DNA of 64,000 nucleotides. Source: Chryseobacterium sp. BLS98. Its GTDB lineage: Bacteria > Bacteroidota > Bacteroidia > Flavobacteriales > Weeksellaceae. Each line of letters begins with the position of its first letter. The stretch's first letter is position 1. A program made the position numbers and the translations under genes. The notes beneath the pieces are model-generated. The model ran no database searches. It was not told the origin of the DNA and was given only the letters and a program-made list of their open reading frames with translations. Positions 47,242 to 63,947 of the stretch are shown here, piece after piece. Location: assembly GCF_001045445.1 (NCBI RefSeq), contig NZ_LFNF01000005.1, positions 124,001 through 188,000 of the forward strand. Reading direction: 5' to 3'.

Positions 47242-47526
47242 ATGAAAAACTTAAAAAAATTGAACAGAAACGAATTAAAAACTATTTCAGGTAATGGTAT
47301 CTTCGATAACATCGGTGGTGTTATTGGCGGCCTTGGTGGAGTAGTTACCGGAGCAGTAGGTGGCGTGGGCACTATCGTTGGTGGTGTCGTAACCGGTGTA
47401 GGCAATACCGTTGGTGGTGCAGTAAATGCTACAGGGCAACTCGTAGGTACTACATTGTGCAATGTACAGTGCGTGATCAACGGGGTAGTGCATATCCAGT
47501 TGCTTTCATGCGGATCTACCTGCTAG
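47242..47526 (+). CDS. Glycine-rich bacteriocin-like leader peptide
   Basis: Precursor of 94 residues. The leader MKNLKKLNRNELKTISGNG has the layout of double-glycine-type leaders, with GNG in place of GG at the cut site. The core (about 75 residues) is glycine- and valine-rich with many GG/GxxxG steps (GGVIGGLGGVVTGAVGG, GGVVTGVGNTVGG), a glycine-zipper pattern for membrane insertion. It ends in a symmetrical cysteine pattern C-x3-C-x12-C-x3-C (CNVQC to CGSTC). This matches an exported bacteriocin or toxin-like peptide. Its own strong terminator follows. The downstream two-component system and CPBP protease may belong to the same system. Confidence 0.8.
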   Translation: MKNLKKLNRNELKTISGNGIFDNIGGVIGGLGGVVTGAVGGVGTIVGGVVTGVGNTVGGAVNATGQLVGTTLCNVQCVINGVVHIQLLSCGSTC

Positions 47527-58047: not shown

Positions 58048-58377
58048 GTATTTGTTATCCCATATTATTTTAATCATTATCCTTCTTTGCCTGTATAAAT
58101 GATTTAAAAGATGTTTCAAAATTCACAAAAAAATATTTCACATCTTAATAATTTTAAGCATAATAAGAATATTCAGTGTAAATTAAAATCAAATGCTTTT
58201 TAATTGATATTTTTTTTAATTAATTTAATATAAAATAACATTTTTAACATTGTATTTATTTGATAATGAGCAGTTAATATTAATAAATTTCTCTTTCTAA
58301 AGTGAAATATTTTATTAATTTAGCTATAACAAAGCTTTGTGATTCTTTAAATTATTATTAATCAAAAAAAATCATTC
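58048..58377. other. Very AT-rich gene-free region before the first peptide pair
   Basis: 330 nt with very low GC, with no coding frame that I support. It includes palindromic words ACAAAGCTTTGT (58329-58340) and AAGATGT / ACATCTT. It should carry the promoter and leader of the peptide pair. The higher AT content than the genes on both sides could mark a transferred or silenced locus. Confidence 0.5.
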
Positions 58378-58536
58378 ATGAAAAAATTAGAAAACAGAAA
58401 AGTTCTTTCAAGAGAACAACTGAAAACTATTGCCGGTGGCGATAAAGGTGTTTGCATATTAGCAAGTGGCGGATACGTTATGAGAGACTGCAATATGAAA
58501 TGTCCGGATGGAGGACGTCCTGTTTGCCCTGCTTAA
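58378..58536 (+). CDS. Cys-rich leader peptide, family A (copy 1)
   Basis: Precursor of 52 residues. The leader MKKLENRKVLSREQLKTIAGG ends in a double glycine at residues 20-21. The 31-residue core has four cysteines spaced C-x11-C-x3-C-x7-C, with the family words GGYVMRDC, KCPDGG and ending CPA. Its sister on the minus strand (63585-63746) has the same spacing and C-terminal CPA. Peptides with such leaders are usually cut after GG by a C39 peptidase-ABC transporter and exported. No such exporter is in the window. Function unknown: bacteriocin, signalling peptide or metal-binding peptide. Confidence 0.85.
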   Translation: MKKLENRKVLSREQLKTIAGGDKGVCILASGGYVMRDCNMKCPDGGRPVCPA

Positions 58537-58578
58537 GTAATTATCCCTTTTAAAAACAACTAAACTAAAAAGATCAAT

Positions 58579-58737
58579 ATGAAAAAATTAGAAAATAAAA
58601 AAGTTCTTTCCAGGGAAAAATTGAAAGAAATTTCAGGAAACGGAATTAGCTTCCAATGCACTTATAAATGTTGTGACGATAGCTCATTACCATTATGTCC
58701 CGGGTTTCAATGCCCTGCAGTAATATGCCCTAAATAA
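58579..58737 (+). CDS. Cys-rich leader peptide, family B (copy 1)
   Basis: Precursor of 52 residues, 42 nt after copy A1 on the same strand. The leader MKKLENKKVLSREKLKEISG differs from A1 by a few residues and ends in GNG instead of GG. The core of about 30 residues has six cysteines: C-x3-CC-x7-C-x4-C-x4-C, with FQCTYKCC and the C-terminal CPAVICPK. Sister B2 at 63777-63947 keeps the CPAV(I/V)CP ending and the CC pair. The even cysteine number fits disulfides or metal binding. It is followed by a decayed lipoprotein fragment. Confidence 0.85.
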   Translation: MKKLENKKVLSREKLKEISGNGISFQCTYKCCDDSSLPLCPGFQCPAVICPK

Positions 58738-58740
58738 TCT

Positions 58741-58840
58741 AATTATTATTACAGGTATAGTGCTAATTTTATGCTCATTAAGGAGTATTCACTTCTGAAT
58801 CAATGAGCGTTAGAACAACCAAAAAACAGGTTATATTAAG
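58741..58840 (+). pseudogene. Decayed fragment of the lipoprotein gene at 60663
   Basis: About 100 nt starting 4 nt after the stop of peptide B1 align with the inside of the intact lipoprotein gene (about 60693-60795). Over the best 55 nt, 44 match by my count. The protein trace is FTSESMSVRTTKKQVI against FTSESLSIGMTKEQVI in the intact copy. A 2-nt deletion just before this stretch breaks the frame, and the start, lipobox and 3' part are absent. It is a relic of a duplicated lipoprotein gene. Confidence 0.75.
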
Positions 58841-58869
58841 CTCTCAGTAAATAATATATTTACTGAGAG
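58841..58869 (+). terminator. Terminator after the peptide pair and lipoprotein relic
   Basis: CTCTCAGTAAA / TTTACTGAGAG stem of 11 bp with a 7-nt AT loop, followed by TTTTTT. It closes the first peptide-pair transcript on the + strand. Confidence 0.85.
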
Positions 58870-58972
58870 TTTTTTAATGAAATTATTACTTCTTTGATTG
58901 TCAACCTGAAAATAACCCGGTAAAAACAAGCAATTACCTGAAATTATAGTATTTATAGTTTATGAGTTATAT

Positions 58973-59323
58973 CTATTCATTTCTGTATTTTTTCCCCCAG
59001 TGTCTTAGGGTTATCAGCACATCCTGAAGGCTCCTGCCTTTATCACTGATGCTGTAATGAACCCGGGGTGGCACCTCTTTATAATCTTTCCGGATAATAA
59101 GTCCTTCGTCCTGCAATTCTTTAAGCTGTTTGATCAGCATTCTTTCTGTAATGTTATGCAGTTTCCCTTTTATTTCAGAATAACGGAGTTCATCATTATC
59201 CAGCAACGAAGCCAGTATGCCCACTTTCCATCTACCTCCGATAACTGTTAGGGTATAGAACATCCCGCAGTTTTTAATAAGGTCTGTTTCGTTTAAAAAA
59301 TTTGTTGAATTTTCTTTTCTCAT
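58973..59323 (-). CDS. HxlR-family winged-helix regulator (second copy)
   Basis: Regulator of 116 residues with KNCGMFYTLTVIGGRWKVGILASLL (Cys and the winged-helix start), SEIKGKLHNITERMLIKQLKEL and a wing ending YSISDKGRSL. I chose the ATG at 59323 (MRKENSTN) because the longer frame (to 59341) overlaps a clean operator palindrome, and the extra MYPPMN is unlike the family. It is divergent from the SDR-DoxX pair and probably represses it; typical ligands are electrophiles or quinones. Confidence 0.88.
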   Translation of the reverse strand: MRKENSTNFLNETDLIKNCGMFYTLTVIGGRWKVGILASLLDNDELRYSEIKGKLHNITERMLIKQLKELQDEGLIIRKDYKEVPPRVHYSISDKGRSLQDVLITLRHWGKKYRNE

Positions 59324-59335
59324 ATTCATGGGTGG

Positions 59336-59357
59336 GTACATACAATTTTGTAGGTAC
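59336..59357. promoter_or_regulatory. HxlR-type operator
   Basis: GTACATAC (59336-59343) and GTAGGTAC (59350-59357) form an inverted repeat matching at 7 of 8 positions around AATTTT. GTAC palindromes at this spacing are typical of HxlR/YodB-type sites, and it lies between the HxlR gene and the divergent SDR gene. Confidence 0.6.
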
Positions 59358-59411
59358 TTGTTTATGGTAAAGGTATAAAATATTTTTGTTCATATATAAA
59401 ACAAAATTAAA

Positions 59412-60236
59412 ATGGGACAAAAAGTATGGCTAATTACAGGAGTTTCCAAAGGATTTGGAAAAGAGCTTTCAAAACAAATCCTTGAAGCCGGGGATATTGT
59501 TATAGGAACTGTGCGGAATGAAGAGGATCAGCAGGCCTTCGACAATAACGTAAACGCAAAATCTTTTATTATTGATCTTGCCAAAACAGAGCATATTGAT
59601 TCGCTTATTAGTAAGATCATTGAACAATACGGTCAGATTGATGTTTTGGTAAACAATGCGGGTTTCGGTGTATTTGGAATGATTGAAGAGTTTGAGGAAC
59701 AGGAGATTATCAGGCAATTCAATGTCAATTTCATGTCTGTATGGAAACTTTGCCAGGCCGTCATTCCATATATGAGAAATAAAGGCCAGGGAGTGATTGT
59801 GCAGCTTTCTTCAAGGGTTGGTATTACAGCAGGTATTGGGAATGGTATTTATGCTGCCAGTAAATTTGCTCTTGAGGGAATGAGTGAGTCACTTGAACAG
59901 GAAGTGAAACCATTTGGTATAAAAGTATTGCTGGTAGAGCCTGGAGCTTTGCGCACTGATTTTTTTGGTGGATCTGTACATTATGCCCGGAACGAATTCC
60001 CTTTATATGCAGAAAAATTAGGGGATATAAGGATAAATACAAAAAAGATCAACGGTAAGCAACCCGGTAATCCTGTTGCCGCTGCACAGGCCATCATCAG
60101 GGCTGTAAATAATGATGTTCCAACCTTCAGGTTACCTCTTACAACGGGTACTATCGAAACTATGAAAGCTAAAATTGCTGATTTACAGAATTGTATAGCA
60201 TTAACTGAGGAGATTGCAATAAGTGTGGATTATTAA
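59412..60236 (+). CDS. SDR-family oxidoreductase
   Basis: NAD(P)-dependent short-chain dehydrogenase of 274 residues with KVWLITGVSKGFGKELS, VNNAGFGVFG, the Ser in IVQLSSRVG and the Tyr-Lys pair in GIYAASKFALEGM. It is of the 'retinol dehydrogenase-like/oxidoreductase' SDR type with unknown substrate. It is the first gene of a two-gene unit with the DoxX-like protein 10 nt downstream and is divergent from the HxlR gene, so it is a probable electrophile- or aldehyde-responsive enzyme. Confidence 0.92.
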   Translation: MGQKVWLITGVSKGFGKELSKQILEAGDIVIGTVRNEEDQQAFDNNVNAKSFIIDLAKTEHIDSLISKIIEQYGQIDVLVNNAGFGVFGMIEEFEEQEIIRQFNVNFMSVWKLCQAVIPYMRNKGQGVIVQLSSRVGITAGIGNGIYAASKFALEGMSESLEQEVKPFGIKVLLVEPGALRTDFFGGSVHYARNEFPLYAEKLGDIRINTKKINGKQPGNPVAAAQAIIRAVNNDVPTFRLPLTTGTIETMKAKIADLQNCIALTEEIAISVDY

Positions 60237-60246
60237 TGACTGAACA

Positions 60247-60639
60247 ATGAAAATAACTTTTAAAAATATTCTGTACTGGGCTTTGTACATAGGATACCTG
60301 TATATCATAGTACCATCATCACTGTTTAAAATTTTTCAACGCCCCGCGATGATGCAAAGCATGGAATCATTAGGTTTTAACAAAACATGGACTCTTGCCA
60401 TCGGAATTGCCGAAGTGATCGGAGTTGCTCTAGTGGTTTTGGGACTCTACAGGTCTCCATTCAGAACTATAGGCATATTATTTCTGTTTCCTTTTGCGAT
60501 TGGTGCCTTTACTACTCACATGGCACATCAGGAATACCATCATTATGGGCATTCACTCATCATGTGTTGCCTTTCTGCAATCCTTTTATTTTTAGACAAT
60601 AGGATTAAAATAAATCTTTCCAGTACTAAAAAATTATAA
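60247..60639 (+). CDS. DoxX-like membrane protein
   Basis: Membrane protein of 130 residues with about four helices: NILYWALYIGYLYIIVPSSLFK, then SLGFNKTWTLAIGIAEVIGVALVVLGLYR, FRTIGILFLFPFAIGAF and SLIMCCLSAILLFL. It is of the DoxX-like family. It is 10 nt after the SDR gene and probably co-expressed under HxlR control. Its role may be quinone or redox related, unproven. Confidence 0.85.
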   Translation: MKITFKNILYWALYIGYLYIIVPSSLFKIFQRPAMMQSMESLGFNKTWTLAIGIAEVIGVALVVLGLYRSPFRTIGILFLFPFAIGAFTTHMAHQEYHHYGHSLIMCCLSAILLFLDNRIKINLSSTKKL

Positions 60640-60662
60640 AGAATACATCCAAAGTAGTTTAT

Positions 60663-60992
60663 ATGAACGTGTTAAAGTTTAAATTATTAGCATTAATTAT
60701 AACAGTTATAATGTTAATTTCCTGCTCTTCAAGAAGTAAATTCACCTCTGAATCATTGAGCATTGGAATGACAAAAGAACAGGTTATATCAAAATTTGGA
60801 AAACCCTATAAATCTTCATTTACAGAAAATAAAGAAGCCGGAGAAATTAAAGAATCTTTATACTATAAAGAAAGTTTAAATATGGGAAATAGATCAATAA
60901 CAAATATTTTAACTTTTAAAGGTGGAAAATTGGTTTCTCTTGAACAAGGGCAGGAATCTGAGAATAATTCTCCGGTTATAATTCATCCCTAA
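60663..60992 (+). CDS. Small lipoprotein with a BamE/OmlA-like repeat pattern
   Basis: Lipoprotein of 109 residues. The signal peptide (about 1-19, LLALIITVIMLISC) ends in lipobox LISC. The mature part has the LSIGMTKEQVISKFGKP motif, common in SmpA/OmlA (BamE-like) lipoproteins, and a short beta part (ILTFKGGKLVSLEQGQ). BamE proteins help assemble outer-membrane proteins, but this one is small and could serve another task. A damaged copy follows peptide B1 at 58741. It stands 23 nt after the DoxX-like gene. Confidence 0.8.
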   Translation: MNVLKFKLLALIITVIMLISCSSRSKFTSESLSIGMTKEQVISKFGKPYKSSFTENKEAGEIKESLYYKESLNMGNRSITNILTFKGGKLVSLEQGQESENNSPVIIHP

Positions 60993-61073
60993 TCAAATGC
61001 TTACTGTAAAAAGAAAATTGAATAGTAACTCTCATCAAATCTGAATCCCATTTAGATTAACATAACAATTTTA

Positions 61074-63302
61074 TTATTTTGTTCTGTTTTTGATTTCATC
61101 AGAAGCATTATTGAAATCACGTATTTTTTCAATTTTTTTGTTTCCGAAGTTATAAGAGATAGAAATATTTAATTGACGTGGATAGTTATAAATATTGATA
61201 TAATTGTAGTTTCCGTTTTGTTGCGGATCATCAATTATAACCCTATTGGTATTTAAAACATCATAAACAGTGGCTGCAAAGGTCCAGTCATTCCATATTT
61301 TTTTGAGCCCTATTTCCAAACTGCCGAGAGGCCTTAACTGACCCAGTTCTATCTGGTAATTGCCAACGTACCAATAGTTAATACTGGCAAACCATGTTTT
61401 AGCCTGATCAAGTCTTATATTATTATTAGTTGAAATGGTTATTCCATTTGATTTTCTGGAATTAATATATGCCGGAAACTTTTCACCTGTTAACGGATCC
61501 GTATCAATACTTCCATCATTAATATTATGCTGTAAACCAATACTTACATTGGTATTCCAATACTGTTTAAAAAATGATTTCTGGAAACCGATTGTAAAAT
61601 TGAATTCTTGACGGTTGCCAAAATTGGTTCTTATATACCTTAATACATTTACATAGCTGCCGTTATTTTCAATTATTCCCTGCAAAGGTATTTGCAGGAT
61701 AACATCTTTATAATATTTATGACCGACAATGAAAAAATATGAATTTTTGAACATATAATTAAGTTCCTGGGAATAAACTGCGGAAGCTTTCATAAACGGA
61801 TTATTCTGAACATAATTGGTTTCCGTTAAATAAGTTCTTACAGGGTTTACTTCCCAAAATGAAGGTCTTTTCATACGGCCTGAAAAAGAATATGAAAGAT
61901 TATGATCTTTATTGATAGAGTAGTTCAGGTTTAGGTAAGGTAAAATATTATGATAGTTTCTCGTAAGATTTTTTAAATTGTCATCCTGAGCGTTATAAGA
62001 GTTTCCTTTATTTTGTGTTAATTCATAACGAATTCCGGCTTTTGCAGAGATTTTATCGTTTACTTTTTTTTCAACAGTCAAATATCCTCCGTAAATATTC
62101 TCCAGATAAAAAAAATGATTTGGATTTCTAACTGCTACACCGGTAGCCAATTGATATAGACTTGTTTCTGTATCATTATCTGTTTTCGTATAGCTGTAAT
62201 TTCCTCCAAAAGACAGTGTGAAATTATTTTTAAATTTCTTATAATAATCTACCGTTACAGAAAAACTGTTAATAATCTGTGGTGTTTCCTGAATAATCTG
62301 GCTTATATCTTCTCCCGTATTTCCATTGGAATCTGATGCTGATGTCGTATTGAGGCCATTCTGTTTTTTTCTGAAGTTTAGATAGGCTGCATTTAGATTT
62401 AATTTACTGCCGATAGAATCCGTTTTTAATTCATAGTTTAAATTGACAGAATTATTATAAGATTGGGCGTTTTCATGATTTATGCTTCGGTTGTAAGAAG
62501 TTTTCCAGACAGTATCATTTAATACATTTACAGTGTTAAATAAATTGGTAACCGAAGTGAAATTTTTGTTATACCAGTTATTATAGCTCAATGCAATGCT
62601 GCTTTTGTCATTTAAAGCATAATCTATATTCAGATATCCTCCATAGTCCTTGTTTGGAATAGATACGGTTCCTTCTGAACGATTTGAAGCTATATTGCTG
62701 CCATTTTCCAATATATAATACTGCCGTTTGGTGTTTTCACTACTATTAAAACTTGAATTAATTCCGAGATTATTTTTTCTGTAATTGATAGAAAATCCCA
62801 TTCCCGGATTGTTATAATATCCCTGATTATTGCTCATTCTTAAGCTTCCGTTCAGGCCATTTTCTGTTATCTTTTTTAGAATAATATTAATAACCCCATC
62901 TGAAGATTCAACTTGAAATTCGCTGCCGGGCATCGTAATAATCTCTATTTTCTGTATGCTTTCAGATGGCATACTTTTTAAAAAGGCTGCCAGAGCATCA
63001 GCATCCATTTGATTTTTTTTACCATTGATATAGATTACAGCATTTGATTTTCCGGCAATCCGTAAAGTTTTATCATCCATTGATGAAATCAGGGGAGTTT
63101 CTTTTAAAAGACTAAAGACCGTGGTCCCTTTTGCTGCCGGGGAAGCTCCTACATCATATATAAACCGGTCATTTTTTCTCTGGAATTTATTTTTTTTCAG
63201 TACAATTTCATTTATTTTCTTTGTTGCTGCTGTATCTTTTTTTTCTTGTGCAGTTACAATTGTTCCGCTCAGTACAATGATTAAATGGATCAGACGTTTC
63301 AT
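61074..63302 (-). CDS. Outer-membrane beta-barrel protein (TonB-receptor-like)
   Basis: Protein of 742 residues. It has a signal peptide (about 1-18, ending VTAQ), a plug-like region (about 40-145, with FIYDVGASPAAKGTTVFSLL, LRIAGKSNAVIYINGKKN and IEIITMPGSEFQVESSDGVI), and a long barrel (about 150-742) ending ISISYNFGNKK before a polar tail. It belongs to the Bacteroidota 'outer membrane beta-barrel' group close to TonB receptors. It has no N-terminal carboxypeptidase-regulatory domain, unlike most of this group, so it is a compact form. It lies downstream of the second peptide pair on the same strand, about 280 nt away. It may import or export the peptides or act as a receptor for them; inferred. 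Confidence 0.85.
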   Translation of the reverse strand: MKRLIHLIIVLSGTIVTAQEKKDTAATKKINEIVLKKNKFQRKNDRFIYDVGASPAAKGTTVFSLLKETPLISSMDDKTLRIAGKSNAVIYINGKKNQMDADALAAFLKSMPSESIQKIEIITMPGSEFQVESSDGVINIILKKITENGLNGSLRMSNNQGYYNNPGMGFSINYRKNNLGINSSFNSSENTKRQYYILENGSNIASNRSEGTVSIPNKDYGGYLNIDYALNDKSSIALSYNNWYNKNFTSVTNLFNTVNVLNDTVWKTSYNRSINHENAQSYNNSVNLNYELKTDSIGSKLNLNAAYLNFRKKQNGLNTTSASDSNGNTGEDISQIIQETPQIINSFSVTVDYYKKFKNNFTLSFGGNYSYTKTDNDTETSLYQLATGVAVRNPNHFFYLENIYGGYLTVEKKVNDKISAKAGIRYELTQNKGNSYNAQDDNLKNLTRNYHNILPYLNLNYSINKDHNLSYSFSGRMKRPSFWEVNPVRTYLTETNYVQNNPFMKASAVYSQELNYMFKNSYFFIVGHKYYKDVILQIPLQGIIENNGSYVNVLRYIRTNFGNRQEFNFTIGFQKSFFKQYWNTNVSIGLQHNINDGSIDTDPLTGEKFPAYINSRKSNGITISTNNNIRLDQAKTWFASINYWYVGNYQIELGQLRPLGSLEIGLKKIWNDWTFAATVYDVLNTNRVIIDDPQQNGNYNYINIYNYPRQLNISISYNFGNKKIEKIRDFNNASDEIKNRTK

Positions 63303-63364
63303 ATATTTATGTTTTTTAATTTATGTATTACAATGTAGCTTGTTATGCAATATACATGTATACA

Positions 63365-63385
63365 ATTCATGAATTAATCATGAAT
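63365..63385. promoter_or_regulatory. Palindrome upstream of beta-barrel gene
   Basis: ATTCATGA / TCATGAAT, a perfect 8-nt inverted repeat with a 5-nt spacer, 63 nt upstream of the start codon at 63302. It is well placed for a regulator site. Confidence 0.4.
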
Positions 63386-63525
63386 CTATTTAGATAAGAC
63401 ATTCGAGATATCACAAGTATTACATCGCGAGCCAAATAGTACTGCAGATATCCTGAATTATAATGAGAAAAGCTATAAACAGAAACCCTCTCAATTAGAG
63501 CTATATGCAGAATGTGTATATACAA

Positions 63526-63560
63526 TCAGCCCGGATAGATTATCTGTTTATCCGGGCTGA
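63526..63560. terminator. Hairpin after the second peptide pair
   Basis: TCAGCCCGGATA / TATCCGGGCTGA is a perfect 12-bp stem with an 11-nt loop, 25 nt past the stop of peptide A2. The T-run after it on the minus strand is weak, so it may be a partial terminator that lets some transcription reach the barrel gene. Confidence 0.7.
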
Positions 63561-63584
63561 CTGAAGTTTAAATAAAATTAATCC

Positions 63585-63746
63585 TTAAGCAGGACATATA
63601 GGATATCCTCCGTTGGGACATTTTAATGTACAGTCCCTTAGAACATAGCCACCATTGGAAAGTCTGCAGACTCCCTGTACATTACCTCCGGCAATGCTTT
63701 TCAATTGTTCTCTGGAAAGGCTTTTTTGGTTTTTTAAATTTTTCAT
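63585..63746 (-). CDS. Cys-rich leader peptide, family A (copy 2)
   Basis: Precursor of 53 residues. The leader MKNLKNQKSLSREQLKSIAGG ends in a double glycine. The 32-residue core repeats A1: C-x11-C-x3-C-x7-C, with GGYVLRDC, KCPNGG and CPA. The core differs from A1 mainly at the start (NVQGVCRLSN). It is 30 nt downstream of copy B2 on the same strand, so the order is B then A, the reverse of the first pair. The conserved spacing across two copies, with the rest of the sequence drifting, indicates selection on the cysteine framework. Confidence 0.85.
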   Translation of the reverse strand: MKNLKNQKSLSREQLKSIAGGNVQGVCRLSNGGYVLRDCTLKCPNGGYPICPA

Positions 63747-63776
63747 TGTAATATTTTTGGTTAAGAAATATGTTAA

Positions 63777-63947
63777 TTATTGTGGGCATACCACTGCCGG
63801 GCATGCACTAAGGCTTGGGCACCGGGGGATTCCGGCAGGAGGGCAGCATTCATATGAACATTCTTTGATAGTGATATTCATTCCATTGCCCATTACATTT
63901 TTTAAATACTCTCTTGAGAGTGCTTTTCTGTTTTCTGTTTTTTTCAT
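63777..63947 (-). CDS. Cys-rich leader peptide, family B (copy 2)
   Basis: Precursor of 56 residues. The leader MKKTENRKALSREYLKNVMG ends in GNG like B1. The 34-residue core has six cysteines: C-x3-CC-x7-C-x5-C-x4-C, starting KECSYECC and ending CPAVVCPQ. It is 30 nt upstream of A2, so the two are co-transcribed. It starts 53 nt from the window end, so its promoter is mostly outside. Together with A2 it forms the second A/B pair. Confidence 0.85.
   Translation of the reverse strand: MKKTENRKALSREYLKNVMGNGMNITIKECSYECCPPAGIPRCPSLSACPAVVCPQ

Follow-up and report, generated by a model that had tools for sequence, protein, structure and literature searches.

Cysteine-rich leader peptides A and B of a Chryseobacterium genome as members of a large bacteriocin-like repertoire, probably exported and disulfide-locked

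The window (the whole stretch of 64,000 nucleotides analysed here, from Chryseobacterium sp. BLS98) carries two cassettes, each with one gene of a family A and one of a family B of short cysteine-rich peptides with a leader. Our comparison shows these peptides to be members of a large bacteriocin-like peptide repertoire of the genus, probably exported and locked by disulfides, and most likely not the halves of an obligate two-part toxin. We used the genome of the strain itself (G000; 4.4 Mb, 8 contigs) and a set of 173 genomes of the genus that includes it, the others being likewise designated by G numbers.

When the open reading frames were read again, the four genes were found where the preliminary description had placed them, in order A-B on the forward strand and B-A on the reverse strand, i.e. 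on opposite strands and in opposite order (Table 1). The gap between A and B is 30–42 bp in both cassettes. The recomputed cysteine spacing also agreed with that description, with 11-3-7 in both A copies and 3-0-7-4-4 and 3-0-7-5-4 in the B copies, and the four cores measure 31, 32, 30 and 34 residues past GG or GNG. The leader type is indeed common to all four peptides, but the pattern that had been quoted for it was too tight, A2 (MKNLKNQKSLSREQLKSIAGG) and B2 (LSREYLKNVMGNG) being looser. A1 and A2 share 69% identity, and B1 and B2 54%. Furthermore, A and B are distant relatives of each other, as judged from an hhalign probability of 98%, to which the leader contributes much, and from the motif C-x3-C(C)-x7-C common to both.

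The case for these frames had been made to depend on a third-position bias across homologs, and changes do pile up in third codon positions in both families (differences at positions 1/2/3: 260/212/545 for A and 149/113/313 for B). The dN/dS ratios of the computable pairs range from 0.02 to 0.35 for A and from 0.04 to 0.23 for B; several pairs with saturated dS were left as 'nan', and the B pair of G153 and G079 shows no synonymous change. A1, B1, A2 and B2 are genuine genes, on which purifying selection acts. The predicted structure of A1 (pLDDT 78.5) combines three short strands with a helix in the leader, and a Foldseek search with this model returned no match at E <= 0.001, while the prediction for B2 was unusable (pLDDT 49). 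Sequence matches in the PDB were taken as chance (best E 0.93 for B; best E 0.1 for A, over 20 residues of a three-finger toxin). A resemblance to squash-type protease inhibitors was also considered for the B core, and was dropped.

Table 1. Features of the two cassettes and their surroundings, in window coordinates
Feature	Position	Strand	Description
Upstream block travelling with cassette 1	58150..58377	+	aligns to upstream regions in G074, G145, G153 and G079
A1	58378..58536	+	52-aa precursor; leader ends in AGG; core C-x11-C-x3-C-x7-C
B1	58579..58737	+	52-aa precursor; leader ends in GNG; six-cysteine core
Fragment related to lipoprotein gene 60663-60992	58742..58836	+	81% alignment inside the lipoprotein gene, G153 and G079
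Hairpin after B1, its 3' end U-rich	58838..58872	+	-19.8 kcal/mol, z -6.6
Horizontally shared segment (58,955-68,137), as indicated by sequence identity	58955..64000 in the window, on to G000:C5:192137	.	94.6-95.8% DNA identity, G153 and G079
Outer-membrane beta-barrel (OMP)	61074..63302	-	PF14905, 215.6 bits; candidate linked partner of A2-B2
Hairpin in the A2-OMP gap, no T run following	63523..63563	-	-25.8 kcal/mol, z -6.8
A2	63585..63746	-	53-aa precursor; leader ends in AGG; four cysteines
B2	63777..63947	-	56-aa precursor; leader ends in GNG; six cysteines; A2 follows after 30 bp

Several DNA elements accompany the cassettes. The block upstream of A1 is a probable promoter region of cassette 1; a sigma-70 scan of the whole window gave no excess of sites (29 found vs. 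29.9 expected). The hairpin that follows B1 is a probable terminator of this cassette. The one next to A2 may separate the A2 and OMP transcription units, which weakens the OMP gene as an operon partner of A2. Both hairpins are missing from a consensus scan of the window. The lipoprotein-related fragment behind B1 is likely a scar of the duplication or movement of the cassette.

We then looked at how far the leader extends beyond these four genes. An exact DNA leader pattern was too strict and found nothing in the own genome, while a profile of the four peptides gave 26 matches at E <= 10, 7 of them weaker than E 0.7. In the parts of G000 that were read, 27 distinct ORFs with this leader type were recognised, including one dubious case; for the whole genome this is a lower bound. 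Their leaders end in G-G, G-N-G, G-S-G or G-A-G. Once A1, A2, B1, B2, an orphan B and the dubious ORF are subtracted, 21 of the 27 have other or diverged cores. The NCBIfam model NF047798 (leader_Chryseo, 'bacteriocin-like protein'), which describes the same leader type as that of A and B, matches the own genome 37 times at E <= 1; the leader family is therefore already known and named by NCBI. At least one match over its cut-off occurs in 160 of the 173 genomes. Against this cut-off of 23.5 bits, A2 scores 25.3, core B 23.2, A1 19.5 and B1 12.1, with no match for B2. As the model spans 18 leader positions only, the A and B cores carry no family name. No core passes any of the curated models tested: NF047792 (CCPGW family putative bacteriocin) bears a weak resemblance to B1, far under its cut-off of 80 bits (B1 18.8, A2 15.0), and PF10439 (class II bacteriocin) gives 18.1 for A1 and 14.0 for A2 against a gathering score of 27.1. 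A literature search by model names, accessions and Chryseobacterium bacteriocins found no publication on the leader family among the entries listed.

Searches outside the genus set added little. A scan of named genomes with A1 gave 8 loci (L034-L041), by title none from Bacteroidota; the only one translated, L034, was judged a chance match and is presumably a piece of transketolase. A2 and B2 had no plasmid match at E 0.01, and queries A4 and A5 had none among viral contigs. Within the window, a further peptide of 94 aa (47242-47526, forward strand) has a GNG leader of the same type, a long Gly/Val-rich repeat core and four terminal cysteines; relatives of it are found in G074, G145 and G153, adjoining A in the first two. 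Elsewhere, at L052 (G168:C2), four leader peptides lie in a row; their cores are related and have GFCC or GYCC at the end.

The leader-directed export proposed in the preliminary description is supported by gene content: five C39-ABC exporters of G000 score above the cut-off, all outside the window, and B and A-like relatives lie in C39-ABC operons of other genomes. One operon (G000:C1:251107-256563), on a different contig from the cassettes, brings together a VKOR gene (PF07884, with Thioredoxin_4), Peptidase_C39 with ABC, HlyD_3 and one leader peptide inside. Full VKOR/C39-ABC/HlyD operons hold B in G056 and G141, and A-like peptides in G056, G141 and G075. To describe the context of B, 60 loci were fetched, a non-random choice spread down the score list. 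In 6 of them, B lies 0.3–1.3 kb from a VKOR gene; C39-ABC and HlyD are also present in four of these stretches (G042, G094, G020 and G014), while G118 has short C39 matches only and G143 only VKOR in the part read. Nine leader-type ORFs were recognised in the operon of G056 (L090, G056:C1:2136001-2156000), and in addition a B between the first two. Two further exporter loci of G000 have precursors of their own. At L095 (G000:C2:906001-926000), a lanthipeptide-type dehydratase occurs together with two leader-like precursors, a C39-ABC and a second VKOR protein. At L096 (G000:C5:7001-27000), a C39-ABC and a radical SAM protein are neighbours of a short precursor whose tail is rich in Pro and Thr.

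The VKOR gene (E <= 1e-60) is present in 161 of the 173 genomes. B was found in 139 of these 161 genomes vs. none of the 12 without VKOR (Fisher p 5e-10, uncorrected for relatedness). Likewise, leader-model matches at E <= 1 have a median of 40 (1 to at least 49) in the genomes with VKOR vs. 1 (0–6) in those without, the rank test being again uncorrected for relatedness. Since 8 of the 12 VKOR-less genomes possess other C39-ABC exporters (one or two each), the repertoire is tied to the VKOR gene and not to C39 in general. Exceptions occur in both directions: G069 has five leader matches (best E 7.5e-8) with neither VKOR nor C39 at the cut-offs used, and G106, G089, G086, G137 and G152 have VKOR yet only 1–4 leader matches. 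In addition, cysteine counts are even in 61 of the 65 clusters into which the cores of the fetched loci fall, the unrelated L034-L041 being excluded, and in 60/63 clusters with at least four cysteines vs. 263/374 control ORFs of the same DNA (p 3e-6). The remaining four clusters, with odd counts, argue against a strict rule.

The explanation that we prefer, at about an even chance of being right as a whole, is that A and B are antibacterial peptides exported by C39, oxidised by VKOR, served by a shared exporter in trans, and probably acting singly. A and B would be precursors of small secreted peptides. Among the five exporters, the C39-ABC at G000:C1:253031-255223, in the operon with HlyD and VKOR-thioredoxin, would cut the leader after G-[G/N/S/A] and export the core, and the VKOR enzyme would close two disulfides in A or three in B. 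The cassettes of the window would be accessory copies, lodged in a part of the chromosome that undergoes recombination and using this exporter in trans, and the mature peptides would act on other bacteria in a bacteroidetocin-like manner.

The distribution of the two families is very unequal. The A profile matched 13 of the 173 genomes at E <= 1e-5, and these matches were then read individually. True A is found in 7 genomes (8 genes, at least 77 bits; G000, G153, G079, G170, G074, G145 and G085), A-like peptides in three others (G075, G056 and G141), and other leader peptides or B itself in the remaining three (G034, G168 and G120). An improved A profile, run on 296 genomes of the family, picked up the same 11 genes, all scoring at least 93 bits, before scores fell to 49.7 bits; at E <= 1e-6 it matched 77 of these genomes, all but 10 via weaker matches only. 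By comparison, the B profile matched 139 of the 173 genomes of the genus, and an improved version 125 of the 296 genomes of the family, in 2 of the 33 genera sampled. In 52 of the 60 fetched loci, the same C-N hydrolase gene (92–99% identity) lies no more than 3.6 kb from B, at a median distance of 0.2 kb; in 9 of these 52, B was placed by profile only, not by sequence pattern. Besides the six loci by a VKOR gene, two have B near neither gene (L141, on a short contig, and L150). The orphan B of G000 (L005; C3:908964) is itself beside a C-N hydrolase gene and a cold-shock gene. Thus, B belongs to the core of the genus and has accessory copies besides, and A is its rare companion.

This conservation of core B is the main argument against a toxin and feeds the leading alternative, namely that core B, and perhaps A, is a self-directed signal or envelope factor of which the window copies are duplicates. 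Its prevalence and its fixed neighbourhood would suit such a role, as would the low dN/dS (0–0.12 in 10 comparisons with the G000 copy), unlike that of a fast-changing toxin, and the confinement to two of the genera sampled. Moreover, no recognised immunity gene stands beside the cassettes, where seven proteins were scanned (EamA, HxlR, SDR, DoxX, DUF2845 and OMP families). A self-directed peptide fits less well, however, with the state of A and of the cassette copies, which are patchy, moved and partly damaged; we regard this alternative as rather unlikely.

The mobility of the cassettes can be followed by comparison with relatives. Colinearity of the own genome with a close relative (G074) stops at 58,050 and resumes at 73,493 (G000:C5:197493), with different DNA in between. 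Within this different DNA lies the shared segment of Table 1, whose identity in G153 and G079 contrasts with the 78–84% of the G153 matches flanking it on either side and with the 79–80% identity of the VKOR proteins of both strains to the own one, which indicates horizontal sharing with distant species. G170 matches the own DNA at 90–93% over 61,062-68,101. As for cassette 1, A1 and 228 bp upstream match the A locus of G074 at 84% DNA identity, next to a relative of the Gly-rich peptide at 47,242. G153 and G079 also carry this upstream block, there fused to a damaged B with A missing, so cassette 1 has both moved and decayed. The damaged B copies (L085 7535-7690 in G153; L086 6889-7060 in G079) lie between the DoxX and lipoprotein genes. 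That of G153 has no start codon at the usual place, that of G079 an in-frame stop, and both have lost the last cysteine. Patchy A, damaged copies and horizontal sharing fit an arms-race gene.

The gene of the barrel, a divergent one, adjoins A2-B2 in all four genomes with this pair (G000, G153, G079 and G170). Among the best six candidates per genome, the close barrel type (at least 85% identity) was found in 5 genomes, 4 of them beside A2-B2; around the fifth, in G145, no leader peptide was seen in the 16 kb read. Barrel relatives at E <= 1e-150 occur in 169 of the 173 genomes, again among the best six candidates per genome, and G000 has three matches on the same count, including the window's own, with two in tandem on C1. 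The 47 plasmid records matched by the OMP all show less than 60% identity. The barrel is a possible linked partner of A2-B2, and we treat it as a lead.

The cysteines of A and B might instead belong to precursors of modified RiPPs, of the radical-SAM or lanthionine type. TIGR04149 (rSAM-modified RiPP) gives weak scores of 19.1 for A1 and 21.4 for A2, under its cut-off of 25 bits, and the genome holds the lanthipeptide dehydratase and radical SAM peptide loci described above. However, both enzymes sit with their own precursors elsewhere, the genes between 57631 and 63302 belong to other families, and the VKOR gene of the operon and the even cysteine counts point to disulfides, so that such modification is improbable here.

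The preliminary description had supposed that both partners are needed, and had made this depend on A and B not occurring mostly alone in relatives. This part does not hold for B, since 132 of the 139 B genomes lack true A. B adjoins 5 of the 8 A genes (two in G000 and one each in G153, G079 and G170), and no B passing the ORF filter was seen within the 19.5–20 kb read around A in G074, G145 and G085. The closeness of the two genes in the window and the presence of some B elsewhere in all seven A genomes could be cited for an obligate two-peptide bacteriocin; the latter can be chance because B is in 80% of genomes. In class IIb two-peptide bacteriocins, both genes co-occur, both peptides are required for activity, and an immunity gene and an exporter lie in the same cluster. 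In our case, A and B differ widely in occurrence, the window has no C39-ABC, and the cassettes have no recognised immunity gene nearby. We therefore give an obligate pair little credence, less than modified RiPPs: A2 and B2 were co-inherited, yet each peptide probably acts singly. Finally, secreted metal-binding peptides, which the preliminary description had also listed and which only the cysteine-rich cores would recommend, are very improbable because the operon encodes a disulfide-forming enzyme; besides, the four cores contain no histidine, and none of the seven window proteins scanned has a metal transport family as its best match.

If A and B are exported peptides of the repertoire, as we prefer, the genus-wide tie between the VKOR-exporter operon and repertoire size offers an entry point to the export and oxidation of tens of scattered peptides, and the repertoire would be a source of likely antibacterial peptides, with predicted disulfides, from Gram-negative bacteria. 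A bolder version, which we consider speculative and rather unlikely, is that a single VKOR-thioredoxin/C39-ABC/HlyD operon serves all these scattered peptides, with B as the core member, and that A2-B2 spread together with the barrel as a receptor or protected variant of the target.

Two known systems of Bacteroidetes allow comparison. According to PMC4999547, BSAP-1 of Bacteroides fragilis is a MACPF toxin whose gene was co-acquired with, and lies beside, the gene of an outer-membrane protein related to its target. A2-B2 is similar in that a possible toxin gene stands beside a barrel gene. It differs in that BSAP-1 is a MACPF protein and that its target was replaced; for A2-B2, a replacement of the BSAP-1 kind by a resistant target is weakened as a reading, because G000 keeps related barrels elsewhere.

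The bacteroidetocins (class IIf) are the nearest worked example, and by analogy with them we rate antibacterial action of A and B as most likely. PMC6671954 describes peptides with four cysteines behind a GG leader, which come with a C39-ABC and a thiol oxidoreductase; no immunity gene was found there, and killing was demonstrated. A and B resemble them in the short leader (GG in A), the cysteine core (four cysteines in A), the thiol oxidoreductase and C39-ABC, and the lack of a recognised immunity gene. Class IIf peptides combine a GG leader with at least two cysteines; A1 and A2 have this, with four cysteines, and only A does, because B ends in GNG, most B homologue rows ending in G-N, G-S or G-A. 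In class IIf, the C39-ABC, a TM protein and usually a thiol oxidoreductase share one region with the peptide, whereas no five-TM partner was noticed next to A or B, the A and B genes of the window lie outside the exporter operon, which is on another contig, and B has six cysteines.
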